From the IMG/VR virus record IMGVR_UViG_3300047300_000614, positions 1-54,054 of that record: 54,054 bases of DNA. One strand, 5' to 3'. The notes beneath the pieces are model-generated. The model was not told where the DNA came from. It saw only the letters and a list, made by a program, of their open reading frames with translations, and made no database searches. Position 1 is the first letter of the stretch, and each line of letters starts with the position of its first letter. Position numbers and translations under genes: made by a program. The DNA comes from a virus. Below are positions 11,527-32,553 of this stretch, one piece after another.

Positions 11527-11537
11527 TAAATACAGAT

Positions 11538-12671: not shown

Positions 12672-12677
12672 TATATC

Positions 12678-12745: not shown

Positions 12746-12764
12746 CACCTTTAAGCATAACACC

Positions 12765-12968: not shown

Positions 12969-12981
12969 TCCCCATTTTTTA
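12952..12981. terminator. Bidirectional terminator overlapping two convergent stop codons
   Basis: AAAAATGGGGA (12952-12962) and TCCCCATTTTT (12969-12979) form a perfect 11-bp stem with loop GATTAA. T runs stand on the + side, and the A run provides a U run for the - transcript. The + gene's TAA (12966-12968) is in the loop and the - gene's stop (12979-12981) is at the base. Confidence 0.9.
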
Positions 12982-15900
12982 TTGTATCCTGATATCCCAC
13001 TCTTTTCTGAAGTCATCATCAGCAATCGCTGTCATCATCATAAGCTCTTTTGTTACCGGCATAATCTTACCAAAGTATTTCAAAGGCTTAGCACTCTTCA
13101 TGTGTTCATCACTTCCTGTACCAAAACCATATATCTGCTCTGTAGTATGAGTAAATAAGTTGATTACATCAATACCTAGATTAACAATAGGGAATGGAGC
13201 ATTGATTAAGTTTGTAAACTCAAGTGGGTTGTAGTAGAATGCAAACTCGTTATAGTATTTAGACATTGCTCTTGACATGTACTTACGAATACCAGTATAC
13301 TTTTCATCATCGTCATCTCCTGGTTTTAGTGCATGTACTAAGCCGTATGCTGCAAGAAGAATCATAATCTCTCTAATAGCACTTCTAACGTTACCAATAT
13401 ACATGTCAACATATTCACCTTCAGTAATATCAAACTCTTGACCTAACTCATAAGCTTTTGCTTTTTCTTCTTGGTATCTGATTCGTGCTGCATCAACCAT
13501 ACTTTGATTACCAGCAAAAGGCATGAACCCTTTTACTAGTTGACCAATACGTTTTGAGAAAAGCTCAGTAACTAATAAAGATACTTTACCTTGTTGGTAT
13601 AGATCTAAATCATCGTCTTTGTATAGTTCACCAAAACGTTCTTTAAACATCTGAGGAATCCATGAACGGAACTGCATTAAAGCCATACCTAATGAAGTAG
13701 TTCTAATAAGGTTAATATCATCATTAGTACTGTTACCAAGTATAATCTTTGTTGCTTTCTTTACTGCAGCTTTAAATTCTTCTGCTGCTTTTGTTCCTGG
13801 TTCTAATCCCGGAGTTAATAGCTCGTCTCCTTTAACTTCAGAGATAGCATAGATACTTCTAGTTTCTTTTAGCTTACCAACTTTTTCATCTATCTCCCTT
13901 TCAACAGCTTTACGTTCTGCTTCAGTTGGATAAGTAGTATAGAAGTTAGCATAGTCATATTGACTCTTAACATGCTGCATAATGTTTACTAACTTACCTG
14001 TATCATCAAGCATGTAGTTCATCATCATCACAAGACCGATAGGATGCTGAACACCTTTATCAGCTATTCTTTGCATGAAATACATCTTATCGACAGTAAT
14101 GTTAGCCATTACCTTTGAAACAGATAACTTATCTAGTTTATTACGCTTTGTATCTTCAAGTAACAACTCAAAGTGACTTAGTAAGGCCCATGCCTTTTTA
14201 TCATTCTTTGATAATGTATACATTGAAGATGTCCAATCTTTTGTATTAAATAATACTTTCTTTGAACCAAGTAAGAATGCGTTACCAGAACCACCAACAA
14301 ACTGTGCTGATGCTGATAATGGGTTTAATGCTAAAGTCTTTAAACTAAAGAAGCCAAGTAAAAACTCAAGAGTCTTTGCTAATGATATTGTTTTACCAAA
14401 GATTGTAAACTTAACATCGTACTGTTCTCCTGAACGTTTGTTATACAAATAGTAGTTTAAGAAGTCATCAAGCAAGTCAGCATTACGCTCATTGCCCTTT
14501 ATTTTTTCAATCTCACCATTTGCTTTACGTTTAACTTCATTAAACATGTTTGTTAGTAAACTATCTTTTGAACGCTCAACTGCAGATAATACTAAGGCAT
14601 CATCTTCAATAGATTGCATCGCTTCATAAGAATACATATGAGCTCCCCAAATACCAAATACTTTAAATAAGTCAACTGATTTCTTTGAGTAATCACTTGT
14701 ACCATCTTCTAATACAGTAGCTATATCTCTTGTATAAAATACTGGTATACGATTAAGTACCTCTCCTGATACCGGATCTGTATCTGGGAAATATTCTGAT
14801 CCACTATCAACTGCTAGATTCTCAAAGAATCCTGCATTTGAGAACATATCTTTAAAGTTACCAAAGCTAAGTTGATCTAACTTACCCTTATAGATATTAG
14901 GAATAAAGTTAGGGCTAAACTTATCAAGCATACCAACTTCTTCAGCTTTTGATACCAAGCTTCTAAAATATTTGTATGCTTCATATGCTGGTTCGTTACC
15001 TGCTTTTGTTAGTTCTTTCCAACCAGCAGTCTCCCACTTATCTTTTGGTTTAACAAACTTGTTATCTTCATTAAAGTATCCGTCTAACTTTGAGCTATTG
15101 TTATTAACCCATCGTTCAAACATTGCTTTTGTTTTCTCATGATTAGCGTTTGCATCAGAATCAACAACTAGATCTTCATAGTATGCTTTCTTACGAGCTT
15201 TCTCAGCTTCATAAGCTTGTTGATCAAAAGTTGTATTTTCTTCAAACCACTTCTTGTTTCTGTTTCTAATAGCTTGTTCTTTCTCACTATAATACTTTGC
15301 TTCATAACGAGCTAAGAACTTACCGTTCCACTTACCTTTCTCATTAAAGCCTAACATAATGTTAAAAAGATTCTCACCTTTCAAACCTTTGCTATCTCCC
15401 CACTTTATTAAGTTCTCTCTTAGAGTAATCATCTTAGCATTCATAAGATCAAACTTAACATCTCTCTTGCTCTGGGCTTCTCTAATAAGTTTGTAGAATG
15501 TTTTAACAGCTTTTGTTGGTTGAGTACTCATTGAGTTAAACATACCAGCAAAGAAACCGACTTTCTTCTCTTCAGCTAAAAGATTAGTAATACCATTACG
15601 TTCAGCAAGATCAGTTGCAATCTTTGCCATCTCAGCTTCAATATCTTTAAGCGTACTGTTTGCTGCAACGGTCATGTTATTATATGACTGCTCAAGTTCT
15701 AATATAAGTTGTAATCCTTCTTCATCTCCTTCATCTTCTCTATCTAATAACATCTCAGTAAAGGTACTTTTTAGTATACCTGATGTTGACGCAAATACTT
15801 CAAGAACATCTTTTGCTTTTCTGATATCTGCAGATGTTAGACGACCTTCTCTTACAAGATAGTTATATCGATCAATCTCAAGGAAACCAAGATCAATAAA

Positions 15901-17829
15901 ACGACCAAGTGACTGACGTAGTTGTAAATCACGAATAGCAAGCTTGTATGCTTTTAACTCTTCGTTCTTTATATACATCTCAGATCCTTTAACACGCTTA
16001 CGATCTAAACGGTCATGAATACCTTGTAGTTTTGCAATTAACTCATCGATATTTTTGAATCCAGTTTGCTCATCTAATGATACTGGTAATAAGTAAGACT
16101 TATCATCTGGGATAAGAGTAGAGTTGTAATCACCAATCTCAACATCTTTTAAATCGCTGATTTGATACTCACCTTCTTTGTTCTTACTCCAGTAAAACTC
16201 AGTCTTAATAGGAATAGCTCTTACCTTATCAAACTTTCTAATGCCATATACTTCTTTTAGAATACGTTTGTATTCACCTAGCTGTATGCGATATGCTTCT
16301 GCCTTCCATGGTTTAAGATCGTTTTGATTCTTTGATATCTCCTGGCTTTTCCAGTCATAGATATCTGCGGTTCCATCAGGACGAATAGCTAAGAAGTCAA
16401 TACTACCAGCCATGTCCTGCTTTGGATCATAGATACGAACTTCAGTTAATATCTTTGTACCATTTGGATAGCTACCTAACAAAGGTTTAACAAAAGCTTC
16501 TAGTTTTTTAACAACATCCTTATACTCTTCTATATCAACAATAGGATGATTAACAGGAGTACGTTGTTCCCGGATCTCATGTGATTCTGGATCAACATAA
16601 CTCTTTATGATCTCGTCTAATACTTCGTGAATAATATCACCATACTCAGCTTTTAATAAGTCAATCTCTTTCTGAGCTTCAGATCTATTATCAAACTTAA
16701 ATAGCTTCTTGTAATAAGCATCTACTTTTGTTGTAGTTACAGTTTTTGCAATAGGTTTCATCTTAATGCGGTACTCATGTCGTTTCTGACCAGTAGCTTC
16801 ATTAATACTTGAATCTAGTGTAATCTCGCTTTGATGTTGTAATAAAAGATCGTATCCTTCACCTTGTTGATAGTATACACCTTCCAGTTGTTTATCTAAA
16901 TCTAACTCACTAGTATCACCTTCTTTGATTGAAGCAGCAATAGTAGCAAATGGATTTCTACCTTCTGCTTTATTAAATACTGACTTTATAAATGCAAGTA
17001 CTTTATCCCACCACTTATATAGTATGCCTAAGTTCTTGTCTTGCTCTTCAGTAATACTTGGAGCTAATACAGAATTAGATACAATATGTTTAGCAATAAG
17101 CTTACCGATTGCTTCTTTCTTTAGTTTGTCAAAGTTGATCTTACCATCAGCAGTTCTGTAGTCAGGATTGTTCTTGTATTGCTCAACAACCTCAGAGTAT
17201 AATCTATAAGAAGTAATCTGCTTGAACATCTCTTTATATAAAGGATGATTCTCACCTAACATCTCAACAAAAAAGTGAGCTGCTTCTTCTGGTAATGTAG
17301 TTATATCAGCACGACCTTCAACGACTTCAATAATCTTATTAAGCATATCTGCTTTTGCAATTGCAGATATTGTTGCCCCGGAAGAGTCGGTAATACGATT
17401 AACTGTATTGTATGATACACCAATCTTTGATAAGAACTTTAATACTTGTTCATTGATATACTTATCAGGAGGCAAAGGTGATTCTGTTTCTGTTTGATAG
17501 TAATCATCTTCAGGTGTAGTCTCTCTTGGTTCTACATCAAAGTCTTCATCATATCCTGCTGGCTCATTAAACCAAAAATCAATAACATCATCTACTAATG
17601 GTTCACCATTCTCATCAAGAGCTTTTGATGATTGACCAACTTCCCAGTCACCAAACGATTGTTTAAACGTATCAGTGTATGCTGAAGCCCATATATTAAG
17701 GTTATATTCTTCTCCTTGCATGTCAGTATCTCTACTAACAATATCTTTATAAAGTATTGACTCCTTACCATTTGGAGCCAATACTTTTGATACATCACCT
17801 GAATCGTTTCTGATTATACTACAAGTCAT
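12979..17829 (-). CDS. 1,616-aa virion-associated polyvalent protein with PD-(D/E)XK nuclease and zincin-like motif
   Basis: Large protein directly downstream of the RNA polymerase polyprotein (15-base gap), so probably co-packaged cargo. Seen: FKQSFGDWE near residues 55-63, a motif I recall from giant phage polyvalent proteins; LPEEAAHFFVEML (~179-191), a zincin-like helix with a degenerate EExxH; and a RecB/Cas4-type nuclease core with H401, E463, GSIDF (475-479), YDWKSQE (491-497) and Q516...Y520. The rest is long, mostly helical and lysine/glutamate-rich, with hydrophobic stretches near residues 1190-1220 (LEFLLGFFSLKTLALNP) and 1480-1500 (IMILLAAYGLVHAL) that could insert into membrane. 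The role of the nuclease (host DNA attack, genome processing) is not determinable. Confidence 0.75.
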   Translation of the reverse strand: MTCSIIRNDSGDVSKVLAPNGKESILYKDIVSRDTDMQGEEYNLNIWASAYTDTFKQSFGDWEVGQSSKALDENGEPLVDDVIDFWFNEPAGYDEDFDVEPRETTPEDDYYQTETESPLPPDKYINEQVLKFLSKIGVSYNTVNRITDSSGATISAIAKADMLNKIIEVVEGRADITTLPEEAAHFFVEMLGENHPLYKEMFKQITSYRLYSEVVEQYKNNPDYRTADGKINFDKLKKEAIGKLIAKHIVSNSVLAPSITEEQDKNLGILYKWWDKVLAFIKSVFNKAEGRNPFATIAASIKEGDTSELDLDKQLEGVYYQQGEGYDLLLQHQSEITLDSSINEATGQKRHEYRIKMKPIAKTVTTTKVDAYYKKLFKFDNRSEAQKEIDLLKAEYGDIIHEVLDEIIKSYVDPESHEIREQRTPVNHPIVDIEEYKDVVKKLEAFVKPLLGSYPNGTKILTEVRIYDPKQDMAGSIDFLAIRPDGTADIYDWKSQEISKNQNDLKPWKAEAYRIQLGEYKRILKEVYGIRKFDKVRAIPIKTEFYWSKNKEGEYQISDLKDVEIGDYNSTLIPDDKSYLLPVSLDEQTGFKNIDELIAKLQGIHDRLDRKRVKGSEMYIKNEELKAYKLAIRDLQLRQSLGRFIDLGFLEIDRYNYLVREGRLTSADIRKAKDVLEVFASTSGILKSTFTEMLLDREDEGDEEGLQLILELEQSYNNMTVAANSTLKDIEAEMAKIATDLAERNGITNLLAEEKKVGFFAGMFNSMSTQPTKAVKTFYKLIREAQSKRDVKFDLMNAKMITLRENLIKWGDSKGLKGENLFNIMLGFNEKGKWNGKFLARYEAKYYSEKEQAIRNRNKKWFEENTTFDQQAYEAEKARKKAYYEDLVVDSDANANHEKTKAMFERWVNNNSSKLDGYFNEDNKFVKPKDKWETAGWKELTKAGNEPAYEAYKYFRSLVSKAEEVGMLDKFSPNFIPNIYKGKLDQLSFGNFKDMFSNAGFFENLAVDSGSEYFPDTDPVSGEVLNRIPVFYTRDIATVLEDGTSDYSKKSVDLFKVFGIWGAHMYSYEAMQSIEDDALVLSAVERSKDSLLTNMFNEVKRKANGEIEKIKGNERNADLLDDFLNYYLYNKRSGEQYDVKFTIFGKTISLAKTLEFLLGFFSLKTLALNPLSASAQFVGGSGNAFLLGSKKVLFNTKDWTSSMYTLSKNDKKAWALLSHFELLLEDTKRNKLDKLSVSKVMANITVDKMYFMQRIADKGVQHPIGLVMMMNYMLDDTGKLVNIMQHVKSQYDYANFYTTYPTEAERKAVEREIDEKVGKLKETRSIYAISEVKGDELLTPGLEPGTKAAEEFKAAVKKATKIILGNSTNDDINLIRTTSLGMALMQFRSWIPQMFKERFGELYKDDDLDLYQQGKVSLLVTELFSKRIGQLVKGFMPFAGNQSMVDAARIRYQEEKAKAYELGQEFDITEGEYVDMYIGNVRSAIREIMILLAAYGLVHALKPGDDDDEKYTGIRKYMSRAMSKYYNEFAFYYNPLEFTNLINAPFPIVNLGIDVINLFTHTTEQIYGFGTGSDEHMKSAKPLKYFGKIMPVTKELMMMTAIADDDFRKEWDIRIQ

Positions 17830-17844: not shown

Positions 17845-20800
17845 TTATTTTTTACAACCTTTATCTTTGTTCTTTAATACTTCTCTTGCTTCCCGAGCTG
17901 CAGCTAATCTAGCATTCATTCGATTTGTGTCAGCAGATACAGTAGTGGTTCTTTCAGCAGTAACTGTTGGTACACCACTACTTAAAATTACTAACTTTTT
18001 ACGAGGTCTGCTAACTGCAGTGTACATCATTCTGTTTTGTTCTTCAGCACTACCTGGGAATGACATGATATCTGTTTCATGAACATACGTAACATCATAT
18101 GTACTACCTTGTACTCTATGTGAAGTAATTGCATATCCAAACTTAACATCAACCGCTGCTTCTTCAAATATAAAAGCTTCTCTATAAGCATTTTTTCTTT
18201 GAATACTACCAGCTGGTAATCTTTCAGCAATAGAATACTTCTGCTTAAGAATATTTCTGTACTCATCGTTTTGCTTTGGATCAACAGTATTAAAGGTAAC
18301 AACTTTCATAACTTCTTTAAAATCACGATCAATAGTTTTTATCTCCATACTTACTTGATATGCCTGTATACCATGTTCTTCTAGTAACTCAACTGATACT
18401 GGTTTAACAGCTGTAACTTTACCTCTAAGACCGTTTTCATATTCAACTTTTCTGTTTCTAGTATAGTTTCTATCAACGCGTAATACATCTCCAACAACAA
18501 AAGCTTCTGATGTATTAAATATCGCACGACGTATTAAGTTATTAAAGTTATCAACTACTTCTCTGCGAGCCGCTACTAAAACTACACCTTTAGTAAATGC
18601 TGGATCATTGTAATCTTTTGCAAAATCTTCAACCGCTTTTTTAAAGTTTGTTTCAAAAGCAACGCCTTCATTATCTGTTATCTTGTTAGTTCTATCCGTT
18701 AATGGGCTAAGGACACTTCCTGGTAATCCTTTTTGCATCTTCTCAACATTTTCAGCATATACATCTGTTACTGGAAGAATAGGACTCTCTGCTCCTTGAC
18801 GCATACGTTCTGTTAACTCAGAGAACCATTCAGTATCTTGTAATTGCCAAATAGGGGAATCTCCAGTTTTTTCTGCATTTATAGGAGGTATCTGAACATT
18901 GTCTCCCATGAAGATAACTTTAGCTTCAGGTAACATTCTTGATAATAGTTTCTCATATATGAAATCATCAATCATTGAAGCCTCATCAATAACGATAAGC
19001 TTTGCAGTTTCAACAGCATCTTGAAGACCTTTTGATTCAAACTCTGCTTGTTCTTGAGCTGTACGTTCTCTAAAGTATTCCTCTCCTTCTTTTGTATATG
19101 CTTGAACTAAACCTAATAAACTAGCAATACTAACTGTATTGTAATTAGTCATTGATAATTGTAGTACCTGTCTAGCTTCATGAGCAACTGTTGCACCAAT
19201 AACTTCCTTTGGTGAAATACCTGATTCAGATATCGCTTTATTGATAATAGTAGTTTTACCTGTACCACCACGACCTTTTAATAAGAACTGATTAGCTGCT
19301 TTGTTTTTCAAGAATCTATCAATATTATCAATAGCTTTCTTTTGTCCTTCATTAGCAAATACTCCTGGGAATAGTTCGTACTTATCTAAAGTTTGCTGAC
19401 CAGGGTTCTCTACAGCTCCACGATACTCAATAACTTTTAGTAAAGCCTCAATAGTAGCACGTGCTTCTATCTCAATCTTATCTTGACTCATTAGATCTCT
19501 ACCGTTAGCCCAATAGATAGATGCATCATCATTATCAATATGACTTTGCTCATGTAATACTAAAAATAAGTTAGCAAGCTTTGTTGTATTGATAATTTGC
19601 TTAAGTGCATCAAGACTGTATACAGGACTGATTGCTTCCATCTGTCTTAATACTTCTGCTTTTTGTACAGAAGACTTACCACCAACTTTACCGGTAAAGT
19701 AATCAAAGAACTCATCAACTGTTTTAACTGGATTGATAGTTATTGATTTACCATCAGTATGAGCTAAACGTTTACTACCATCACTGTTTGTAATAGATCT
19801 GTCAATAGTATAAGCTGGAATCTGAATACCGTTTTCTACTTTTGCAGCAACTACATTAGCAGTAACCTTTGTTGGTTGAACTAATTCAAACTCAATAGCA
19901 TATGGATATTGACCAACTAACTTATCAGTTACAGCTTTTTCCCATCCTTCTTTTTCCCAAGTTTCATCTTGATACTCTTGCGTAAATGGTGTAACCTTTG
20001 TGATTACAGTTTGTGCTGTTCTACCAGATTTATCAGTCATTGGGATTACTTTACCTACTAAATCTTCAATCTTAGTAAGACCGTAATCTTTCATCATTCT
20101 ATCGATATCTGTCTTAGCACGAGTAGTACGTGTACGATCACCAGATAAAACTAAATCCATTGTTGATTTACCTTCAAATTGAGGCTGCATCTTACGACCA
20201 TCCTGACCATCTTTAAAGTTTTGCTCAATAGGAGCTACTGTAGTTGTTGTAGTCTCAAATGGATCAGTACCTTCTTCTTCTGGTTTAAGTAAAGTATCTT
20301 CAACAAATGGTGCTAACTCATAAACATGGTATCTTATATTTAAAGGATTCTCTCTCATCCAAACAACAAGACGACCTTTTACTTGATCTTCAGTAACACC
20401 TTCTGTTCTTAATACTTCTTGCTTACCACCTGCTTCTTCAAGAGTTTTAAAACCTTTGTAAGTAACATATACCTTAACGCCGTTTATTGTAGCAACGCCA
20501 CGTTCGTTAAGACGCATTGCATCTGGATTACCGTAAGAGTGTATTCTTGTTTTTACTCCGGTAGCAATAAGCTCAGAAGCGTTATCAGTTGTACTAATAT
20601 CAAGACTAACTGGACGATTACCTGTTTTTTCTGCTTTGATATCTTCATCTTCTTCAAGTAATGCATTAACAACATTAGAGTTAACTCCTCTAAGGTTACC
20701 CATCTTATTACTTGCGTTAGACTGAATAACTGATTGCATGAATGGATCTTCAGATAACTCAGTTAAACGATACTTAAGACCTAGTGGATTAATTGGTACA

Positions 20801-23800
20801 TATCTAGAATAGATAACTCCTTTTACTACAACATCTTGTCCTGATTTCTTGTACAAGATTGTAGAGAAAATCTCATCACGTCTTCCGTTACGAATAAGTT
20901 CTGCTTGATCACGCTTATCTTTAACTGCAAGAACTGTACGCTTAATGTAGTCTAAGTTAACATCAGTAGAGTCAACAGATATTAATACGTTATCTGTTCC
21001 TTGCTCAAACTTGTAGAAACGAGGTGTTGGTACAACATTACTATCATGGGCCATGTTCTGGTGGAACTGTTCCCAGATAACTTCTGGATTGAAGTCAACG
21101 TTTTCGTTTGTATTGAATCGACCAAGGATGTTCTTTAATAGTACAGAGTATATCTCAACTGGTAAAAGAGGTGTAAAGTTATTGTAGTTCTTTTGGAAAC
21201 CAGTTTGTAAGATACTATAGATTGCTATCTGCTTTAAGAAGTCTGATAAGTCTTGGTTACCTGTGTTCTCAGCATATTGTAATAACTCTTTTGCTGAATC
21301 AACAATATCGTTTATATCTTCTGTACTTCTTAAGCTCTTGATGTTATCCGGTAAGGCTTCGTTTGGAGAAATAATTGGTACCAAGTTTTTGATAAACATA
21401 TTATTTCTGATCATTGAATCATCACTCTCTCTGTATGCACGTAGTTTCTTAGCCCAAGAATTATCTCCAAAGAACATCTTCTTGAAACGATTGATACGTA
21501 CATCTTTTCCGTTTGCATTTTTATATACCGTGTTTTGAATGATATAGTTAAACACAAAGTTTTGATACTTCTCAACTAAAGAATCGATATCATCAGTTGT
21601 CATAAATAAGTCTGACTCTAACTGACGCATTAATGGATCAAATACTTTATCTAGTCTACGATCAAGTAATGTAAAGAATGGTTCAAACATCTTGATGATA
21701 GACTCTTTCTGAGCTTTCATCTCACCAATGAATGTATTGTCTAACAAGTCTTGTGGATTAGCAATAAAGCCATCCTTAACAACTTTATTCCAACGTGATT
21801 GTTGAATCTTGTTAGTACGGATATTCTTTGACTTCTTATTATCGTATCCTTGAGCTCTGATGTAATCATTTAACTGATTACCTTGAACAGAATACTCTAA
21901 GTAGTCAGACATAATACCAATCTGAGACCAACCAAAATCAGCAAGATCTTTTTCTAAAGCAACTTCAGCTTCTTCATTATCAAGTCCTGAGCCATAAACC
22001 GCATACATTGTATACTGAAGTTCGGCTCCGGTTTTGATATTATCTTCTAACTCTTGTGTAGTAATTGTTGGCTGAAGAGTTTGTGCTTTTCTATAGATAG
22101 CTCCAAGGATTTTATCTAAAGATGCTATTAACATAAAGTTACCGGCTTCTTCAGCATCCTTGTAGATGTTCATTATATCTCCTTTGATTGGCTTTATCTC
22201 TAATTCTTTAAATACATCTTCATACTCTTTTGTTGATTGAATGTAGTTCAAGAACGGATTAGCCGCTTCAAGAGCAAGCATCTTATTGTATGCTTTGTAT
22301 CCTTTGATCTTTTTGAAGTAAGACTTGTTTGATGCTACTCCTTTAAAGTAAGTATCTAAGATAGGTTGATTAAAGAAGTAAGCAATATCATCAACGTCAA
22401 TACCTAAACGTTGCATATAGAACCACGTTGCTGCAGTATCCATAGTCAAGTTAAGGTCAAAAGTAAATGGATCTTTTGCAGCATCAACGAATCCAGATAA
22501 AGCTTCGTTAAACAAGTCTGAGATTAATGATCCGTTTTGAGTAACTGTTAATGATAATGATAACTCTTTGTTTGAATCATGATTTAATCTGATATTGATA
22601 GTCTTATCTTTTATACCTTTACCTACTAGATAATAAATACGCTCAGGGTTATATAGACCAGATAACTTTGTTCCAGCAATCTGTGACATGATATGAGATG
22701 TAATCTGTAATGCAGCAATACCAACAAGTTTCTTACCACTAACGAATCTGTGACGAATACGTGAGCTGGCAACAATACTTCTTAAGTTTGCATAACCTGC
22801 ATTTTCATCATCCTTCTTACCTTTTAATGTGTTGATCTTGTTTGCAAGACCTTTTAAAGTTGCTGTTGTGTTTGGTGTAATTAACTGAGCAAAGTTCTCA
22901 GGTAATAAAACCAAGTCATTCATAACCTCAATATAACGGTTCTGCAATGCTTTCTTAACTGCAGCTTGAACAATCTTCTCTCTACGTTCTTCAGCATTCT
23001 TAAGACCTTCTAACCAGCTAACAGCAATACTGTCTTCACCAAGCATTGAGCTAACCATAGCTAAGATCATACGTCCTTCTGGAGTCGATGCTTCTTTTGC
23101 TTTGAACTTCTCAATCTTTTCTAAGTCAGATGGAGATAGCAACTGTCCTTTATCATATAAGTCTTCGTAGTATGCTTTTGTTTTCTCAGCATTACCTTGC
23201 CACTTATATGCAACAATCTTATTACCTTGTTTGTAATGGTTAGCAAGATATACTTGCAACTTATCAATATCAAAGTCAGATCCTGATTTACCAGTAATCT
23301 CAGATGGTAATACAATCATATCACCCATCTCTTTTGGTAAGAATCCTTTTACCTTAATACTATCAATTGAGTTCATACCCTGAGTAGGAATACGGAAACC
23401 AATTGCTTTTAATAAAGTTGGATCAATCTCATAATCACCAGTCTGCAAGATGCCATTAACAAGCTTCATGTTACCAGAAGGAATCAAGTCTTCCATAAAC
23501 CAAGGTAAGTATACCTCCATTGATGTAGTCTTTGCATTCTTTCCAGTACCTTTCTTGTAGAAAGCTAAGTCACTAGATACCATTCTAACAGTTTTTTTCT
23601 CATCATCTGTTAGTTCATTTACTTTTGATGCAGCAATGTCTGTGTATACTCCATCTTTTAAGTAAACATATGATCTACCTTTTGTTTCAAACAATGTGTT
23701 TGCTACTTGAACTAAAGGTTTACCCGGCATCTTCTCAGAGATAACTCGTGAGTCAACAATAGCGTTTAAGATATTATCTATCTTCTCACGAGCAGTTGAT

Positions 23801-26800
23801 GAATCAAGTGTATACTCTAGTTCTTTAAATCCTTCTTCGTTTGTAATAGTATTAATAGCATCAACAACGTTATCTGGTAACTCACGTTGCTTTAACTCAT
23901 TACGTAATACACTAACAATCTTTGATAAGTCGGTTGCTTTGTAATTACCATTTGCTTGTTCAGTAAGACCTAACTCTTCAAGTAAAGACTTCTTACCAAT
24001 CTTTACCATCTCTGTCATGATTTGGTTGTACTCCTTAACAAGTTTCTCAGACTCTTTAGAAGTGTAAACACCTTTAACTCTAAAGTTAGACATGATCAAC
24101 TTAGATACCTGAGTACCACGAACTACTGCGTACTTAAACGTTGATGGTACTTCTTGTTGAATACCAAAGTAACGCATGATTAAAGTTTGAGCAGGGACAT
24201 CAGTAAATGATAACTTGCCATCTTTATCTCTTGTTACGTTAGCGTTTCCATCAGTATCGTAAATCTGAGTAAATCCACCTTTACTGTTTAATGTAGCACC
24301 AACTTTTTGACCAGATGTTAAATTGATTATATCATCTTGTGCTTCTTGAGATGCAATATAGATATCTTCAAAAGCAGTACCTTCAACAAAACGATAAAAC
24401 TTAGGTTGTGCAGAGTTCTTTAAAAACACTGTATGCATTAACTTGTTATCAATTGCATAACCAAAGTACTGTGGCTTGATTACGTTAAGGATACCACCTG
24501 GATTACCTTTTGCTAAAGTCTTTTTTGCTTGTTCTAAAACAGGCTTATCATATGTTTTATGAGCATTACTTGATGTTGGCTTTTTACTTCTTGCAACAAT
24601 CTCATAAGCCATCTCATATTCAATCTGAGCTTTTTGCTTACGTGTTAACTTCTTACTTAAGAATAACAAGTCACGATACATATCCGGCATGATCCATGCT
24701 TGACCATCGGCTTCGTTAATCTCTAAGTATTTAGCAATCTCACCAGTATAGCCACCTTTTTCATCAAAGATGAACCCAACAAACTTATTGTCTTTATCAA
24801 ATGTAACTCCTAACTTCTGAGATGCTTTTTCTGCATTCATACCATTAGCAATCATACCTGCATAAATAACCTCAGCATATTCTTTTGAACGTAATGCTGA
24901 TACAGTTATATCATCAAAGGTACGGTTCTTCATTGTAGCAACACGTTCTGAAGATCTAACTTTACGGTCAAGACGTGGCATGTTTTTATCCATCCATGTT
25001 CTTACAGTAATGTTATCTGTGATACCTTCTTTTGTTGAGTTGATACCATTTGAACGTTTTGGTAAGTCTTTGTATAATGCTGGGTGACCATACAAGATCT
25101 TATGTTGCTCAGTAATAGCAATCTCTTTGTTTACAAATAAGAATGTTGCTAAAGATGTCATCTGTGACTTAGTAATCTGATATGGATCAGATACACCAAG
25201 GTAAGTCTTTAAGAAGTCAGCATCTAAGCTTAAAGAAGCAAAAGTACCTGAGCTTTTTGAGTAAACAACAATGTCATGTTTGATTAACTCATCAATAGTA
25301 TCTCTAGCTCCTTGTTCAATATGTGCATTAAGTGCACGTGTAACGTTATTGCTATTAACAAAAACGTTCTTGTCTAGTGTGCCTGCAGCAATATCTGCAA
25401 CTCTCTTAACTAAATCCTTTCCAAGAATATCTCTGTAGTGACCAAGCTTTTTAACATCGTAAATACCATTCTTCTCATTTTGTGAATAATACTGAATATT
25501 AGCACTTTGCTTGTGCTCTTCAACAGCAGCATCAATCTCATCTAGTAATTGGTCTAAGTAGATTTGTTTTACTCCTTGTAAACCTGCACTACTTGTAATG
25601 TCTTCAATAGAGTAGAATGCTTTTGGTAATGAGATAGCAAACTCCGAAGACTTATCTGAGTTGATAACTGTATAGTAAACGTTTTGTGTCAAGTGATAAA
25701 TCTCTTGCATTAAACGATCTGGTTCAGTTAAATCTGCAGTAGTCTTACCTTCAATACCAGCAGTCATAACACCACTGATCAAGTTATACTGAAGCATGAA
25801 TGGTTTCATAACACCTTGTTCAATAGATGTTTCTGATTCTACCATTCGCTTATTACCTTTCTCATCAAATACTAATCCACCTGGCTTAAGTAATAAGCTT
25901 CGTTGTTGATATGGATGTAAGGTTACTTCACCAGTCTTTTCATTAACTGTACCAAACTGTGGATTACCAAGTACTAAATCTTTTAATGTTGCAGCACTGT
26001 TTATTGCATTAATAACATAACCTGCTGTTGATGGATTACTGATTGTATATTGTTGCTCACCATCAGCTGTTACATGTGACAATACATTCTCTTCAGATGT
26101 TGTTGCAATCTGTAGATTAAGTAATGCATTGATACTAGCATTAGCTCCTGTTCTGCTAAATAAAGTTTGGATACTAAAGATATCACCTTTTGAGATACCT
26201 GCTTTGATACCAGAGAATGCGTTAACAATAACTCTATACTGTTCAGTATTGAAATAAGTGTTTGTAAACTTAATACCAAGCATTGCTAAACGCTCAACTG
26301 CTTCCTCACCTTTCTCTTCAATTGTAGCACCAGCAGTAAGTCTTGCCATGAACTGCTTGTATGGTGTACTCATTGTATCAAATACAACATTACCAGAATC
26401 ATCAATACCTAATAACTCATCAGCAGTTTTTAATGATAACGGCTTAGCAGTTGTTGAAGCGTTTGCTGCCCACTGATCACGTAAACCGTAAGTAGTTGAC
26501 GTTAAGATTGAATCATCAGATATAATAACACCATCCTCACCATATACAGTACGGATAGGATTGTTCTGAATCTTAAGTAAGCTTTGTTCAAAACCAACTA
26601 ATAATTCGATATCATCAGCTGATAAGTTTTCAGTTGGATATGGTTTACCAAAAGCATCTTCATACTTAAGACGAACCTTTAAACGTTGAATCCACTCGTA
26701 TCCTTCTTTGTATGTTTTAATCTTAGACTTTGGAGATACTGGCTTAATCTTGAACTTAGCATCAAGACGTGTAAACATCTCATCAATTGCATTTACTACC

Positions 26801-29800
26801 TTACCATCTTTATATTGTTGAATAGAACCATTAAGTTCATTTAACAAGATAGCGTAAACTCTATCGTAGCTTAAAGATTTTGGTAGCTGTAATGGGTTAC
26901 GCTTAAAGTAGATCTCACCTTTCTTTACATTAAAGTAATCATCAGTTAAACCTGCAAGTAATAACTTGAAGTTAGTTGCTCCAAACTTACGTGGATCAAT
27001 ACTGATACTATCTTTAATACCAAGGTTATCTGTTTTCTTTAACTCATCTGCCCCTTCTTCAACACTTGAGTAATCGTTATCTGATTGCTTAAAGATTAAG
27101 CCATACTTGCTAACACGAGTCTTAAATAAATCATAGATCTCTTCTGTGTTTGCAAATGCAGCGTCAAGCTGATTATACAATCCTTTGTATTTATTAAGTA
27201 CCGATCTATTATCGTTTAATAACTTATTAAACACACCACTCTTTTCTAAATCAGTTAACTTGCGGTTAAGCTTCTGCTCAATTCTACTAACTGCTTCTGC
27301 TAAGAACTCATTCTTGTTTCCTCTTGTGTATGCCTCAGCATCTGCTAAAGATTGTTTAAACAAAGAAACAAGTAACTCATTTGTATCTGCTGTATCATCA
27401 AGTAAAGCATCAATGTTCTTCTTGTTCAAATACAAGTTTCTAAAGAAGAAAGATGTTATACCATCAAGGAAGTACTTTGTAAACTCTTGACTAGTTCCAG
27501 GGATTGCACGATATACTGTCTCTAAGTTATTAAGATCTCTTACAGGGACAGCATTAGCAAACTCACCTTCATTAATACTAACAAATACTTTATTAATCTT
27601 GCTTTCTAAATCATTGAACTCAAGTTCTTTTAAACCAAAGATTCCTCTAATAAAGTTAATCAACTCTTGGAAGAATGTCTTTTGTTGTTTAGGCATATTA
27701 ACCGGTAACTTACCAGTTAACATATAATCTCTAAACGCTTCTGCCAACATCTCACGTACATCGTACATGCTTGCTTCAGCATACGGTTTCGTTTCGTTTG
27801 TGAATGGATTATAGAAAGTACCGTCTTGCTTTATAAACTCTTGAGCTAATTCATCCTGCTGAGCTTTTGTTAAGTAACTATTCCATACTGATTCAAAAGC
27901 TTCGTGGAAACCTGTACCGATCTCTGCATTCTCATAGATATAGATTGCACCGTTCTTAAATGCTCCCCATGCTTTGTTCTCAATAAGATCAGCCATTTTA
28001 TGAATAGGTACTTGTGGTAAAGCACGCTTCATAAATACAGCTAACTTAAAAAAGTCTTCTGTCTGACGAACAGGTCCTAACTGAAGACGGAAAACCATCT
28101 CTTCTCCGGTAGCATCAATACCAGCTTCATTACTTGCATTAAGAATATCTCCTGCTGCTAAAAGAGCTTCAATATCTGAACTAACAACCGGAGTTGCTGG
28201 AGTATCTGCAACTGGAGTACTTGAAGCAGTTGAATCAATACTTTCAGCTGCAGTATTCTTTATTGTTAAACGCTTCTTTGTTGTAGTTGTGCCTTTTGCA
28301 TCACCATTATCTTTTACAGACTTCGCAGCTTCTTGAGCTTTATCTTCTTTGATTTTTTGTGGTGACTTATTTTTCTCAACTGTTGCTTTTGAATCCGTTA
28401 GATCTTGTTCTGTTGGAGCAAATGCTAAGAAACGACCAGCTCTTTGTACACCAGCAGCTTCAGAAGGATTTGAATCGTACGGACGTTCATTTGTAAATAA
28501 TACAGGAACTCTACCGTCAGCATTACTTAATAGATACTCATTATAGTTAGAGTAGTCTTTTATCTGAGGTACACCATTGACCATAGTAACCTCAGTAAAC
28601 TTATCTGTCTTTCTTACTAATGAGCTATTAACAGAATGATACTTACCAGTTAGCATACCAGGAAGTTCTTTCTTAATAGTTTTTGCATCAAACTTAATGC
28701 TATCAGCACCTCGGTATAATTTACCTTTGCTGATATACATCATTGTTGAAGGAACAGCAACACCTTCAACTGGACTTGCCCAGTGTAAAATACCTGATAA
28801 GTATTTCTTTATTGCAAGAAACTCAGTGTCTTCTTGAGCAGAACGTTTCTTATTACCTATTAATCCAGTAAAGTATGCTAATACATCAGTGATGTTTGCA
28901 ATCTCTGCTTCTGATAACTGACGATTGTATACACGGTGAATACGGTTTGTATTCTTACCAATAAGTACAATCGATCCTGGTCTTACGTTTTCTGCTTCAG
29001 GATCATCTTCAATAGTTACTACCTTTAAGAACATAGCCTCACCACTTGGATGATGCAAGTCTCTAAAATCAGTAGTATCCATATCAATAACAATACCTTG
29101 AAGATCTTGTTCTAAAGGTCTGTTGTTGCTATCTTTTTCTGCAAACTTCTTAACACCTTGACTGACACCTGTGATATCTAAAACCTGAGCTTTTCCCTTC
29201 TTTGTTTCGCTTTTTATCATTTCACGAAACTGTTGAAGCATCTCAACTTCTTTTACGATATCCTCATCGGTATATTCTTCTTCAACTGTATAGATCTCTC
29301 TAATATACTTAACAGCTGCTTCTGCATTTTTCTTTACAGACATATCAGCTGTAAGTGTCTTATTGCCCATTAAAGAAGTATAGACAATAGTATCTTTTGT
29401 TGGGTTCTCTAAAGGATTACCAGCAACATCAACATATACATAATTACCATCTGCAAGTTTCTTAACAACAACTAACTTGATGTCATCAGAAAACTTATCT
29501 TCACGTCTAATACCTAACTCATCATTGTCTGCAGTAATAGGCAATAGATAAAAATCATTGCCAAGTATCTGAACTCCTTCAGTAAACTTAAAGAAGATAT
29601 GGTTATTGTTTTCCGTATTTATAGTTTTGTCATCATCCAAGAAATGACTACCTGCTGTTTTAAGTAATCCATACTTTCTGTAAGAAGGCTTTTGTCCTTC
29701 TGTACCTGTTCTTGCATAGAATGACTCAGCATCATTATCAATAATACCGTCACCTTCTCCTTCAAGACCTTCCATCTCTGGATCAACCTCAACCTTTTTA

Positions 29801-32553
29801 CCAGTAGCTTTTAACTCAGCTTCTTCTTCTTTAACCTTTGCTTCCATTACTTTTGATAGCAATGAAACCATCTCTTGGTTATGGCTATTTAAATAGTTAG
29901 AGAAGTTAATTGGATCAATGATATGGTTGATGTTTTCCAACAACGCTTCATGATCATTCTGTAAGCTAAAGTAGTCAGTTAAGTTTTCAAATGCCGCACG
30001 TGCATTGTTATCTTGAACAGGTAACTTACCAGCTTTTGCCAACTGATCATTAATATAAGATGTAAAAGTTGGTAGTGCTTTCTCAGTAAACTCTTCTAAT
30101 GCCTTATTTAAAGCAGCAGCTTTCTTTTCTGGGTTTTTGTTATCAACACTGTTTGCAGCATCAAGTTTCTTTAAATACTTCTCAAGCTCTTTATTGTATT
30201 TATTTAAGCTATCAATCTTTGCTTCCTTTTGTTTCTTTAACTCAGGATCTTGAGTTGCTTCTGCTTCTTGTTGAAGTAACTTGATTTCACTTGCTAACTT
30301 ATCAGTTGAAGTAAGACTATAGATATCTGTAAAGCCAACGTTTTCAAAACCTGGTTTACGTTTGATGCTATCTAATACTTGTTGTTGACGAGTTATAGCA
30401 CGGTTATAAGTATCTTGCATAAAAGTAAGCTGATTAATAGCTTCCTTGTATGACATATAACTCATACCTTCTTTTATATACTCTTCAGTACCGTACTTAA
30501 AGTTACCTGGATTAAATGGATTAGCATAATCAGAAGATAGTTTGTTATGAATATCTCTGATCTCTTCAGCTCTTTGTGTAAAGATCTGAGTTTGCTTAAC
30601 CATATCAGCATGGTTCTCTTTTGTATACTCAACACCAAACGCCTGAGTAAACTCATCTTCATTAAGATTCTTTGTATAGTCAACTAATCGATCAGTTAAC
30701 AAATCAAGCATACCAGTATTGATACCAGTTAAGATAAACTGACGAGTAGCATCATCTTGAATATCATTAAATGCTTTCTTGTCTTTATTAACAGCTGATT
30801 CTCTTAATAACGCAGCAAAGTTTGATTGGTTAGCCGCACTCTCTTTGTTATAATTATAAGACAAAGGATTAGCGTAGATCTCGTTTATTGCATTCTTAAC
30901 GCTTGTTCTTGCACTAGCTTCTTTACCTATACGTTCATCGTATGCAGCTCTATCTGAAAGACGTTGTTGTAATGAACCTGCTCTATCAAATGCTACACCA
31001 GCAGCTCCCATGATAGTCCCTGTAAAGAAACCAGAGATAAATGTTTTAGCACCTTCAACACTAAATTGTTTTGAAGCAGCATCACGGATAGCATCAAACT
31101 TAGAGTCTAACTCTTGTCCGTTATACTTAGCCATATACCATGCTTTTACAGCATCTCCAGAAATACTTTGAGCATTCTCTTGTAAAGCTTCGGATAAGTT
31201 TGCACCAAAGTACTTTAATGGATTACTAACAATAGCATTCTTGTAATACATCCAGCGGTTATCAGCAGCTTCAATGACTTTCTTACCAATCTTTAAAGCA
31301 TCTTTATCACTAACAACAGCTAAACCTTTCATGATGTCTTCATCCATCATATAACGCAAAGGTTTGAATCCTTTTAACACGTTACTAAAGCCAAGCTTAT
31401 TGGACATTAAGATCATAGCTGTATTTGCAGTACCATTAACTTGTGCTGCTTCTAAAGCTTGATTCTTAATCTCTTGTTGTTCTTGGTCCGTTGGCTTTCT
31501 TCCATAACGTGTTTCAAAGTTATACGTCATTGAAGACTCAAGATCTGAGTATGTTCCAGACGCTTCTACTTTAGCTTCAGATAAAGCTAAGTTAAACTCT
31601 CTAAAGTCACGATACAAAGCACCAAATCCTCTTGCGGCAGTTCTTGCTTTTGCAAGAGATGTTGCACCGTATGCCATCTCATCAGCTCTACGCAAAGCTT
31701 TAAAGCCTGACGCAAAGTCCATGACATTGTCAATAGGATTGACTAAAGCTGTTGTCTTTTGTAAAACACTAAATGCCTTACGCATTGCATTTGCAGAGTG
31801 AATACTTTCTGATAACTCAGTAGTTCTCTTTGCTGCTTTTGCAATATTGCTTGCAAGTTTTACCGAACGAGCTGCTTGTAACTCAGCTGCTCCTCCAAAT
31901 GTTTGGGCAGTTAAATAACTTAATGCAGCTTCTTCTGCAGCAATCTCAACTGCTGCTCCAACCATAAATCCACTTTGCTGTAACGTATTAGCAATAGTGT
32001 TAAAGTTAAAGATACCTTGACGATCTGCTTCAGTTTCAAAAATAGGATTATCGTTTAATAAAGCTTTTTGACGACGAGCAAGTTCTTCCATCTCGTTCTT
32101 TTCAAAAGCTGCTTTCATCTCTTGACTAGAGAACACATCAAAAGTATCTCCCCAACTTTTAAACTGATCCACTGCTTGATTCCAAGCTAAAGCACCCATG
32201 CCGGTAAATGCATTCTTTAACTTGTCAAAGTTAGTTTGAGCATTACCGTATAGTTCTTCATTATTACGAAAAGGATTAAAACCTAATTCACCAAAGTATT
32301 CTGAGTTTGTATAACGATCTCTGTTTGTTGCTTCAGCATCATACGCAATAGGACGAAGTGATTCGTCTGTTGAAACTTGTGATAAGTTTTTTCTGGCAGA
32401 AGCCATGACATCTTGAAACTCACGATCAGCTTGTGCATAAGTTGCATTAGCTCTCATTGAGTCTAAAGGATTCGGCTGATCTGGAACGTATGCTGATAAG
32501 TCAGCTTGAGGAGTTGATACCTGGGTAATTAATGGTTGATATTCTTCTGCCAT
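17845..32553 (-). CDS. Giant 4,902-aa virion RNA polymerase polyprotein (zincin-RNAP-ASCH-zincin-SF1 helicase)
   Basis: The N-terminal ~550 residues resemble phage ejection proteins, with the hydrophobic segment FFTGTIMGAAGVAF near 508-521. A coiled region spans ~690-850. A Thr/Ser/Ala/Pro/Lys linker (~1400-1470) precedes a zincin-like site FHEAF (1549-1553, HExxE). The RNA polymerase core shows GFRIPTQGMNSI (R3054) and GSDFDIDKLQVYL; the triple-Asp loop DFDID is at 3093-3097, as in crAss-like virion RNA polymerases. A Thr-rich linker (4099-4105) is followed by an ASCH-like domain (~4122-4225: FEGKSTMDLVLSGDRTRTTR), a canonical zincin HEQSH (4334-4338), and a Pif1/RecD2-like SF1 helicase with Walker A GRGGTGKT (4427-4434), VIDEAS, MGDNVQIPP, SHRVQGSTYD and YTAVSRPRKK. 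It is likely packaged and injected to transcribe early genes. Confidence 0.9.
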   Translation of the reverse strand: MAEEYQPLITQVSTPQADLSAYVPDQPNPLDSMRANATYAQADREFQDVMASARKNLSQVSTDESLRPIAYDAEATNRDRYTNSEYFGELGFNPFRNNEELYGNAQTNFDKLKNAFTGMGALAWNQAVDQFKSWGDTFDVFSSQEMKAAFEKNEMEELARRQKALLNDNPIFETEADRQGIFNFNTIANTLQQSGFMVGAAVEIAAEEAALSYLTAQTFGGAAELQAARSVKLASNIAKAAKRTTELSESIHSANAMRKAFSVLQKTTALVNPIDNVMDFASGFKALRRADEMAYGATSLAKARTAARGFGALYRDFREFNLALSEAKVEASGTYSDLESSMTYNFETRYGRKPTDQEQQEIKNQALEAAQVNGTANTAMILMSNKLGFSNVLKGFKPLRYMMDEDIMKGLAVVSDKDALKIGKKVIEAADNRWMYYKNAIVSNPLKYFGANLSEALQENAQSISGDAVKAWYMAKYNGQELDSKFDAIRDAASKQFSVEGAKTFISGFFTGTIMGAAGVAFDRAGSLQQRLSDRAAYDERIGKEASARTSVKNAINEIYANPLSYNYNKESAANQSNFAALLRESAVNKDKKAFNDIQDDATRQFILTGINTGMLDLLTDRLVDYTKNLNEDEFTQAFGVEYTKENHADMVKQTQIFTQRAEEIRDIHNKLSSDYANPFNPGNFKYGTEEYIKEGMSYMSYKEAINQLTFMQDTYNRAITRQQQVLDSIKRKPGFENVGFTDIYSLTSTDKLASEIKLLQQEAEATQDPELKKQKEAKIDSLNKYNKELEKYLKKLDAANSVDNKNPEKKAAALNKALEEFTEKALPTFTSYINDQLAKAGKLPVQDNNARAAFENLTDYFSLQNDHEALLENINHIIDPINFSNYLNSHNQEMVSLLSKVMEAKVKEEEAELKATGKKVEVDPEMEGLEGEGDGIIDNDAESFYARTGTEGQKPSYRKYGLLKTAGSHFLDDDKTINTENNNHIFFKFTEGVQILGNDFYLLPITADNDELGIRREDKFSDDIKLVVVKKLADGNYVYVDVAGNPLENPTKDTIVYTSLMGNKTLTADMSVKKNAEAAVKYIREIYTVEEEYTDEDIVKEVEMLQQFREMIKSETKKGKAQVLDITGVSQGVKKFAEKDSNNRPLEQDLQGIVIDMDTTDFRDLHHPSGEAMFLKVVTIEDDPEAENVRPGSIVLIGKNTNRIHRVYNRQLSEAEIANITDVLAYFTGLIGNKKRSAQEDTEFLAIKKYLSGILHWASPVEGVAVPSTMMYISKGKLYRGADSIKFDAKTIKKELPGMLTGKYHSVNSSLVRKTDKFTEVTMVNGVPQIKDYSNYNEYLLSNADGRVPVLFTNERPYDSNPSEAAGVQRAGRFLAFAPTEQDLTDSKATVEKNKSPQKIKEDKAQEAAKSVKDNGDAKGTTTTKKRLTIKNTAAESIDSTASSTPVADTPATPVVSSDIEALLAAGDILNASNEAGIDATGEEMVFRLQLGPVRQTEDFFKLAVFMKRALPQVPIHKMADLIENKAWGAFKNGAIYIYENAEIGTGFHEAFESVWNSYLTKAQQDELAQEFIKQDGTFYNPFTNETKPYAEASMYDVREMLAEAFRDYMLTGKLPVNMPKQQKTFFQELINFIRGIFGLKELEFNDLESKINKVFVSINEGEFANAVPVRDLNNLETVYRAIPGTSQEFTKYFLDGITSFFFRNLYLNKKNIDALLDDTADTNELLVSLFKQSLADAEAYTRGNKNEFLAEAVSRIEQKLNRKLTDLEKSGVFNKLLNDNRSVLNKYKGLYNQLDAAFANTEEIYDLFKTRVSKYGLIFKQSDNDYSSVEEGADELKKTDNLGIKDSISIDPRKFGATNFKLLLAGLTDDYFNVKKGEIYFKRNPLQLPKSLSYDRVYAILLNELNGSIQQYKDGKVVNAIDEMFTRLDAKFKIKPVSPKSKIKTYKEGYEWIQRLKVRLKYEDAFGKPYPTENLSADDIELLVGFEQSLLKIQNNPIRTVYGEDGVIISDDSILTSTTYGLRDQWAANASTTAKPLSLKTADELLGIDDSGNVVFDTMSTPYKQFMARLTAGATIEEKGEEAVERLAMLGIKFTNTYFNTEQYRVIVNAFSGIKAGISKGDIFSIQTLFSRTGANASINALLNLQIATTSEENVLSHVTADGEQQYTISNPSTAGYVINAINSAATLKDLVLGNPQFGTVNEKTGEVTLHPYQQRSLLLKPGGLVFDEKGNKRMVESETSIEQGVMKPFMLQYNLISGVMTAGIEGKTTADLTEPDRLMQEIYHLTQNVYYTVINSDKSSEFAISLPKAFYSIEDITSSAGLQGVKQIYLDQLLDEIDAAVEEHKQSANIQYYSQNEKNGIYDVKKLGHYRDILGKDLVKRVADIAAGTLDKNVFVNSNNVTRALNAHIEQGARDTIDELIKHDIVVYSKSSGTFASLSLDADFLKTYLGVSDPYQITKSQMTSLATFLFVNKEIAITEQHKILYGHPALYKDLPKRSNGINSTKEGITDNITVRTWMDKNMPRLDRKVRSSERVATMKNRTFDDITVSALRSKEYAEVIYAGMIANGMNAEKASQKLGVTFDKDNKFVGFIFDEKGGYTGEIAKYLEINEADGQAWIMPDMYRDLLFLSKKLTRKQKAQIEYEMAYEIVARSKKPTSSNAHKTYDKPVLEQAKKTLAKGNPGGILNVIKPQYFGYAIDNKLMHTVFLKNSAQPKFYRFVEGTAFEDIYIASQEAQDDIINLTSGQKVGATLNSKGGFTQIYDTDGNANVTRDKDGKLSFTDVPAQTLIMRYFGIQQEVPSTFKYAVVRGTQVSKLIMSNFRVKGVYTSKESEKLVKEYNQIMTEMVKIGKKSLLEELGLTEQANGNYKATDLSKIVSVLRNELKQRELPDNVVDAINTITNEEGFKELEYTLDSSTAREKIDNILNAIVDSRVISEKMPGKPLVQVANTLFETKGRSYVYLKDGVYTDIAASKVNELTDDEKKTVRMVSSDLAFYKKGTGKNAKTTSMEVYLPWFMEDLIPSGNMKLVNGILQTGDYEIDPTLLKAIGFRIPTQGMNSIDSIKVKGFLPKEMGDMIVLPSEITGKSGSDFDIDKLQVYLANHYKQGNKIVAYKWQGNAEKTKAYYEDLYDKGQLLSPSDLEKIEKFKAKEASTPEGRMILAMVSSMLGEDSIAVSWLEGLKNAEERREKIVQAAVKKALQNRYIEVMNDLVLLPENFAQLITPNTTATLKGLANKINTLKGKKDDENAGYANLRSIVASSRIRHRFVSGKKLVGIAALQITSHIMSQIAGTKLSGLYNPERIYYLVGKGIKDKTINIRLNHDSNKELSLSLTVTQNGSLISDLFNEALSGFVDAAKDPFTFDLNLTMDTAATWFYMQRLGIDVDDIAYFFNQPILDTYFKGVASNKSYFKKIKGYKAYNKMLALEAANPFLNYIQSTKEYEDVFKELEIKPIKGDIMNIYKDAEEAGNFMLIASLDKILGAIYRKAQTLQPTITTQELEDNIKTGAELQYTMYAVYGSGLDNEEAEVALEKDLADFGWSQIGIMSDYLEYSVQGNQLNDYIRAQGYDNKKSKNIRTNKIQQSRWNKVVKDGFIANPQDLLDNTFIGEMKAQKESIIKMFEPFFTLLDRRLDKVFDPLMRQLESDLFMTTDDIDSLVEKYQNFVFNYIIQNTVYKNANGKDVRINRFKKMFFGDNSWAKKLRAYRESDDSMIRNNMFIKNLVPIISPNEALPDNIKSLRSTEDINDIVDSAKELLQYAENTGNQDLSDFLKQIAIYSILQTGFQKNYNNFTPLLPVEIYSVLLKNILGRFNTNENVDFNPEVIWEQFHQNMAHDSNVVPTPRFYKFEQGTDNVLISVDSTDVNLDYIKRTVLAVKDKRDQAELIRNGRRDEIFSTILYKKSGQDVVVKGVIYSRYVPINPLGLKYRLTELSEDPFMQSVIQSNASNKMGNLRGVNSNVVNALLEEDEDIKAEKTGNRPVSLDISTTDNASELIATGVKTRIHSYGNPDAMRLNERGVATINGVKVYVTYKGFKTLEEAGGKQEVLRTEGVTEDQVKGRLVVWMRENPLNIRYHVYELAPFVEDTLLKPEEEGTDPFETTTTTVAPIEQNFKDGQDGRKMQPQFEGKSTMDLVLSGDRTRTTRAKTDIDRMMKDYGLTKIEDLVGKVIPMTDKSGRTAQTVITKVTPFTQEYQDETWEKEGWEKAVTDKLVGQYPYAIEFELVQPTKVTANVVAAKVENGIQIPAYTIDRSITNSDGSKRLAHTDGKSITINPVKTVDEFFDYFTGKVGGKSSVQKAEVLRQMEAISPVYSLDALKQIINTTKLANLFLVLHEQSHIDNDDASIYWANGRDLMSQDKIEIEARATIEALLKVIEYRGAVENPGQQTLDKYELFPGVFANEGQKKAIDNIDRFLKNKAANQFLLKGRGGTGKTTIINKAISESGISPKEVIGATVAHEARQVLQLSMTNYNTVSIASLLGLVQAYTKEGEEYFRERTAQEQAEFESKGLQDAVETAKLIVIDEASMIDDFIYEKLLSRMLPEAKVIFMGDNVQIPPINAEKTGDSPIWQLQDTEWFSELTERMRQGAESPILPVTDVYAENVEKMQKGLPGSVLSPLTDRTNKITDNEGVAFETNFKKAVEDFAKDYNDPAFTKGVVLVAARREVVDNFNNLIRRAIFNTSEAFVVGDVLRVDRNYTRNRKVEYENGLRGKVTAVKPVSVELLEEHGIQAYQVSMEIKTIDRDFKEVMKVVTFNTVDPKQNDEYRNILKQKYSIAERLPAGSIQRKNAYREAFIFEEAAVDVKFGYAITSHRVQGSTYDVTYVHETDIMSFPGSAEEQNRMMYTAVSRPRKKLVILSSGVPTVTAERTTTVSADTNRMNARLAAAREAREVLKNKDKGCKK

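Follow-up and report, generated by a model that had tools for sequence, protein, structure and literature searches.

The stretch of DNA analysed in this study (54,054 bases; referred to below as the window) is a linear virus record and possibly a fragment. It contains a single reading frame of 4,902 residues, in which the motifs of a virion RNA polymerase (vRNAP) are combined with those of a helicase and of several smaller domains. The questions raised by this locus are why a polymerase of this kind should carry such domains within the same polypeptide, and whether they are permanent parts of it. We propose, with a probability of about 0.6, that the crAss-type virion RNAP is an injected chassis, comprised of gp47-like cargo, the polymerase and exchangeable accessory domains fused in frame, with the helicase acting in cis.

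Open reading frame and gene neighbourhood

The first-pass annotation described a single 4,902-residue frame with the motifs FHEAF (position 1549), DFDID (3093), preceded by GFRIPTQG, and HEQSH (4334), and a complete set of SF1 helicase motifs. The frame was found to contain no internal stop and all of these positions were confirmed, with GFRIPTQG at 3052 and the helicase motif GTGKT at 4430; the strand (minus) had not been given. The predicted features are summarized in Table 1.

Table 1. Features of the giant ORF and of the ORF that follows it (nucleotide positions refer to the window)
Feature	Residues	Position (nt)	Strand	Basis or remarks
Whole ORF	4,902 aa	17845..32553	minus	uninterrupted frame; orthologue L002, 4,866 aa
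gp47-like N-terminal part, fused	1-1430	28264..32553	minus	the zincin 1 block that follows aligns with gp47
T/S/P/A-rich linker preceding zincin 1	1433-1470	28144..28257	minus	composition
Zincin-like domain 1	1490-1680	27514..28086	minus	HEAFE replacing HExxH, then LAEAF; alignments, motif census
RNA polymerase body	1680-4090	20284..27516	minus	phmmer to 6vr4; 22 aligned relatives; 80 IMG/VR loci
Expected beta-type double-psi barrel	2693-2712	24418..24477	minus	invariant Lys2693, Lys2712
Beta-prime-type barrel and catalytic motif	3052-3097	23263..23400	minus	GFRIPTQG...GSDFDID
ASCH module	4109-4224 (116 residues)	19882..20229	minus	AlphaFold, Foldseek; 23 other loci
Zincin-like domain 2	4240-4375	19429..19836	minus	HEQSH 4334-4338, invariant downstream Glu
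SF1 helicase, Dda-like	4401-4857	17983..19353	minus	Pfam, PHROG, phmmer, motifs
Next ORF, gp49-like by position	1,616 aa	12979..17829	minus	PD-(D/E)XK nuclease domain

Virion structural genes, recognized by their PHROG matches, are located upstream of the giant ORF on the same strand. Past the 1,616-aa ORF that follows it downstream, the ORF layout and PHROG matches revealed a divergent replication block, encoding a DnaB-like helicase, a primase and a DNA polymerase. This order, i.e. tail genes, RNAP block and replication genes on the opposite strand, is that of the neighbourhood of crAss-type virion RNA polymerases, and the layout around the giant frame is that of a crAss-like transcription block. 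In the RNAP tree, the window groups with environmental relatives, outside the named families. No terminase, portal or capsid gene was recognized within the 54 kb.

The 1,616-aa ORF contains a PD-(D/E)XK nuclease domain (aa 372-529, nt 16243-16716), which matches PF12705 (8.4e-6) above the cut-off. Near the N-terminus of the same ORF (12979-17829), the sequence PEEAAHFFVEML resembles a damaged zincin motif. A small ORF of the replication block (4963-5406) is similar to GIY-YIG endonucleases (FVYKITNLSTGQIYIGKK).

Distribution of the fusion

Scans of viral data with single sequences of the RNAP and helicase parts gave almost no matches, and a diverse alignment used as the query proved effective. 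The alignment-based scan of IMG/VR was evaluated for the best 80 of 513 polymerase relatives; in most of these, zincin 1 and the polymerase share a single frame of approximately 3.7-5.1 thousand residues. The same two parts also form one frame in the published Suoliviridae genomes, and they are separate ORFs in Steigviridae. An additional frame, of 4,401 aa, was observed in Flavobacterium phage Fpv1 (4857-18062), in which it is annotated as a virion structural protein; it contains DYDID in place of DFDID, and HEVIH near the C-terminus.

A helicase is present on the C-terminal side in the window, in the environmental loci L002/L030, L031/L038, L099, L101/L110, L123, L126, L127 and L130, and in two published phages, cr50_1 and cr118_1. 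In the uncultured phage cr50_1 (Suoliviridae, Cohcovirus; QOR58058.1, product name "DNA helicase"), a 4,774-aa frame comprises, like that of the window, a gp47-like part, zincin 1 (with HEAFH), the RNAP and a C-terminal SF1 helicase. The latter, however, is placed on another branch of the helicase tree. The 4,946-aa frame of cr118_1 (Suoliviridae, Besingivirus; YP_010110531.1, annotated as "exonuclease V") likewise contains zincin 1 (HEAFH), the RNAP and a C-terminal SF1 helicase (AAA_30, 1.7e-25). In contrast to the window, neither of these proteins has a match to its ASCH module or zincin 2. Since both are deposited, the helicase fusion was already present in public databases. The first-pass view that a fusion with helicase and ASCH is unusual is thus correct insofar as only a minority of relatives have the helicase tail, but this tail is not unprecedented, and fusion of the gp47-like part with the RNAP is the norm. 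The literature searched yielded no textual description of an RNAP-helicase or RNAP-ASCH fusion; Fig. 3 of PMC7886860, on the domains of the transcription block, lies outside that text search. We regard the polymerase-helicase fusion as a variant of a known architecture, while the exchange of domains, above all of ASCH, is less expected and looks new.

The possibility that the fusion is an artefact of assembly or annotation, which is raised by its occurrence in one metagenomic contig, can be practically dismissed. The contig L002 encodes a 4,866-aa orthologue with an identical domain order except for ASCH and comes from a separate dataset, so the fusion is not an accident of assembly. The architecture is shared also by L031, and independent contigs with C-terminal helicases include L099, L123, L126, L127 and L130, besides cr50_1 and cr118_1.

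RNA polymerase body and the fused gp47-like part

A phmmer search of PDB chains matched residues 3038-3400, which span GFRIPTQG and DFDID, to the virion RNA polymerase of phage phi14:2 (gp66; PDB 6vr4) with an E value of 1e-21. The context of these motifs (YRIPTQG...GD..P.E.T..GSDFDID) is common to 22 aligned relatives. This match and the shared barrel-type context bear out the earlier assignment of DFDID to a crAss-type virion RNA polymerase. Upstream of DFDID, Lys2693 and Lys2712 (alignment columns K291 and K310) are invariant in the 22 relatives, and judging from this conservation they may form the second, beta-type barrel. The phi14:2 enzyme has the same active site and flanking barrel sequence as the window, but it is a protein of 2,180 aa encoded by a separate ORF, in which our searches detected neither a helicase nor ASCH.

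The products gp47, gp49 and gp50 of crAss001 have been detected in virions by mass spectrometry, and these homologues of the giant polymerase and the adjacent proteins are believed to leave the particle in threaded form and to refold afterwards (PMC10172136). Genes g065-g067 of phi14:2 carry an annotation derived from virion MS/MS. By analogy with these homologues, the giant polymerase protein is probably also packed in the virion and injected.

The zincin 1 block aligns with the C-termini of crAss001 gp47 and of the equivalent ORF product of Dulem virus 41, and residues 1-1680 are therefore most readily interpreted as a gp47-like protein that has become fused; for residues 1-1430 themselves, homology was seen only with environmental relatives. 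The top hydrophobic stretches outside the polymerase body, according to hydropathy, lie in this part (aa ~196-214 and ~504-522), and contact with the membrane during ejection is a possible role for them.

The first-pass annotation predicted two zincins, of which only the second has the HExxH..E motif. In zincin 1 the second metal-ligand His is replaced by Glu (HEAFE), and a Pfam search with this domain gave no match. The motif could be read in 75 environmental relatives, of which 54 have HExxE and 21 HExxH, which makes HExxE common in this family; HEA[FW]H was found in 16 sequences, i.e. the published relatives and some others. In view of this census, we do not favour a recent loss peculiar to the clade of the window as the origin of HEAFE. 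At this motif (27892-27906 in the window; relatives L030-L109), HExxH and HExxE alternate, the metal ligand changing repeatedly while the rest of the domain is conserved.

C-terminal helicase

The helicase matches the Pfam families AAA_30 (2e-18), UvrD_C_2 (1.4e-8) and AAA_19, all above the cut-offs, as well as the Dda-like helicases of phrog_325 (E 3.7e-70) and, in phmmer, T4 Dda (PDB 3upu; E 1.3e-12). Its motifs I to VI are intact (Walker A, DEAS, GDxxQxPP, ERMRQ, HRVQGST and YTAVSRP) and cover a full two-domain core. The prediction of an SF1 helicase extending from approximately residue 4400 to the C-terminus is well founded on these PHROG and Pfam matches and the complete motif set. The diverged helicase copy of L002 also retains the SF1 motifs. 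T4 Dda is a 5'-3' helicase. It shares the SF1 motifs with the helicase of the window, but it is a free-standing early protein, whereas the latter is the C-terminal domain of a predicted virion RNAP.

A search with PHROG 325 covered the records behind 25 loci. In each of the six fused contigs the sole full-length Dda-like helicase resides inside the vRNAP frame (E 1e-73 or better), while none of the 19 non-fused contigs (78-124 kb, maybe incomplete) encodes one, short P-loop matches being all that was detected in them. The proposal that a replicative Dda kept by all relatives has simply changed place in the fused contigs is unsupported, a full-length copy being present in 0/19 of the non-fused ones. 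Monophyly of the fused helicases relative to four free-standing ones was neither supported nor rejected.

Roles in genome entry, in repair or in counter-defence are also conceivable for the helicase. As an entry motor it would track along the incoming DNA and draw the genome into the cell, either by itself or together with the polymerase. Such a role agrees with its attachment to a protein that should accompany the genome into the cell (PMC10172136) and with its restriction, among the surveyed contigs, to this protein; on the other hand, the cargo is thought to exit before the DNA (PMC10172136) and most relatives enter without a helicase, and we consider this role unlikely.

ASCH module

Comparison of the ASCH module with Pfam, PHROGs and the PDB by sequence revealed nothing significant, even when four members were used. 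The AlphaFold model based on 20 aligned members (mean pLDDT 95.8) was compared with the PDB using Foldseek, and the top three matches were all ASCH proteins: E. coli YqfB (9kyf; probability 1.00, E 9e-4), a Lactobacillus protein (3s9x; 0.99) and a Zymomonas protein (5y6c; 0.93), with modest TM scores of 0.46-0.50. The predicted fold, which is the PUA-like fold of ASCH domains, thus supports the domain named by the first-pass annotation.

Relatives of ASCH domains include readers of modified bases (PMC7641849), and some ASCH domains are ac4C amidohydrolases, of which YqfB has the catalytic residues Lys21, Thr24 and Glu74 (PMC9599836). The module of the window shares with the three structures the fold and the octapeptide G-x-[KR]-T-x-T-x-R. 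However, in its version of the latter (GDRTRTTR) the position of the catalytic Lys is occupied by Arg, which is invariant in all 20 aligned rows; the Thr is present and the Glu is only plausible. The known chemistry of YqfB is therefore not to be assumed for this module, which most likely contacts nucleic acid or nucleotides.

Besides the window, 23 IMG/VR loci carry the module, with 57-84% identity to the copy of the window, and in all 23 of them it lies inside an RNAP-bearing frame. The association is thus exclusive among the loci found, which distinguishes this family from ASCH proteins of the YqfB type. The scan relied on two short peptide patterns, which could miss other contexts; with these patterns, no module of this type was found in 84,980 prokaryote genomes. 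Pairwise dN/dS values of 0.09-0.23 indicate that the protein is under purifying selection.

Zincin-like domain 2

Homologues of zincin 2 are present in L002, L029, L053 and L068, with a weaker one in L005, and HExxH together with the downstream Glu is invariant in the five aligned rows. The structural model of the domain (pLDDT 84) had no match in the PDB and its fold is unconfirmed, so that its name derives from the motif. In L053 and L068 the domain is found at the C-terminus of the RNAP frame, and in L029 it belongs to the next ORF, which indicates that the assignment of domains to ORFs shifts among relatives. In the latter locus (8717-16978) the ORF carrying the homologue directly follows the polymerase ORF. 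In L005 (15610-30321; the published phage cr116_1), the polymerase is broken up into several ORFs, with a small additional ORF inserted among them, and the zincin 2-like domain is located upstream of the polymerase, near the usual site of zincin 1.

Such shifts invite the view that the giant chain is a polyprotein, cut into subunits before packaging or after entry, in which fusion only ensures equal amounts of the cargo proteins. The separate ORFs of Steigviridae, the zincin 2 of L029 and the flexible linkers at the module borders would agree with this, but the chain has no known cleavage site, and the insertion of ASCH inside the polymerase body of three loci (see below) does not mark a subunit border. 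We therefore judge a polyprotein improbable.

Exchange of modules between positions and lineages

Within RNAP-bearing frames the ASCH module occupies at least four sites: (i) just before zincin 1, approximately 1,560-1,590 residues upstream of DFDxD (L112 and L114), (ii) inside the polymerase body, approximately 470 residues upstream of DFDxD (L116, L118 and L098), (iii) after the polymerase, 915-1,264 residues downstream of DFDxD (most loci, including the window) and (iv) further downstream, after the helicase (L126). From this variety, the module would seem to fold on its own and not to form part of the catalytic machinery.

The nucleotide sequences of the modules show 78-87% identity, which covers the module and little else, the similarity ending at its edges. 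In 91 pairs, the ASCH modules are 52-92% identical (mean 74), compared with 20-55% (mean 28) for the polymerase cores, and the two identities are uncorrelated (Spearman 0.10, p 0.36). The close relative L002 lacks ASCH and has an unrelated stretch at that site.

The helicase tree is in conflict with the RNAP tree: the helicase of the window groups with that of L031 (99/96) and its RNAP with that of L002 (100). The window and L002 are about 80% identical over most of the rest of the protein; in the helicase, identity is mostly 33-43% and falls to 19% in one stretch. A swap of the helicase between lineages would be the simplest reading of these data, although fast evolution of the L002 copy is a possible cause of the low identity. 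The RNAP tree requires at least six changes of state for ASCH and at least seven for the helicase, frequencies that are biased for ASCH, since its loci were picked by the presence of this module.

These data raise the possibility, which we put forward tentatively, that ASCH, zincin 2 and the Dda-like helicase are small mobile modules, which have been repeatedly inserted in frame into the virion RNA polymerases of crAss-like phages, moved and exchanged, and which supply each phage with pre-made effectors acting before its genes are expressed. A rival view makes the polymerase a delivery vehicle for effectors acting against host defence or metabolism, independently of transcription. It is consistent with the sporadic occurrence, horizontal exchange and position-independence of the modules, with the PD-(D/E)XK nuclease in the adjoining ORF and with the kinship of ASCH to modified-base readers and amidohydrolases, but the Arg in place of the catalytic Lys means that the known amidohydrolase chemistry may be absent. 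Moreover, ASCH and the helicase co-occur beyond expectation (6/20 versus 3/73; p 0.003, a statistic that ignores kinship), which would fit a shared nucleic-acid task. We view the delivery role, in which the targets would be modified bases or nucleotides for ASCH, host or phage DNA for the helicase and host proteins for zincin 2, as rather unlikely.

Proposed function of the giant polymerase

The reading that we prefer is the injected chassis. The presence of the helicase or ASCH elsewhere in the same protein of related phages is what makes the polymerase appear to be a chassis with exchangeable parts. One chain would unite the gp47-like cargo protein, the polymerase and the accessory domains; packed in the capsid, it would probably be threaded into the host, refold and transcribe the early genes. 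The C-terminal Dda-like helicase would most likely open or clear duplex DNA in cis, providing the polymerase with a single-stranded template. The first-pass suggestion of a helicase that opens the duplex for the polymerase, or that helps to draw in the genome during transcription, is thus plausible. If it is a 5'-3' helicase like Dda, it would track on the non-template strand, and thus move in the same direction as the polymerase. Through in-frame recombination, phages would acquire or lose accessory domains, shift them to other sites and exchange them with one another.

A parallel for such an arrangement comes from Neurospora. The structural work on 6vr4 is said to have placed the fold of the crAss polymerase closest to enzymes of the QDE-1 type. 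QDE-1 transcribes single-stranded DNA and acts with the helicase QDE-3 (PMC2950127), i.e. a polymerase with a helicase partner on ssDNA, as proposed for the window. QDE-3, however, is a separate RecQ protein of a eukaryotic silencing pathway, whereas the helicase of the window is fused. Most relatives of the window transcribe without a helicase, which implies that it is not generally required.

The locus bears on two questions, namely in what way the virion polymerases of crAss-like phages gain a template when the DNA is duplex, and what enters the cell together with them. Since polymerase and helicase are covalently linked, a single protein and its Walker A mutant would suffice for a direct test of the former. 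The confinement of ASCH to such polymerases among the loci found, at several positions, would point to recognition of nucleic acids or nucleotides being put to strong use during the initial minutes of infection. The ASCH module may also help to trace how injected domains are exchanged among the abundant phages of Bacteroidota.
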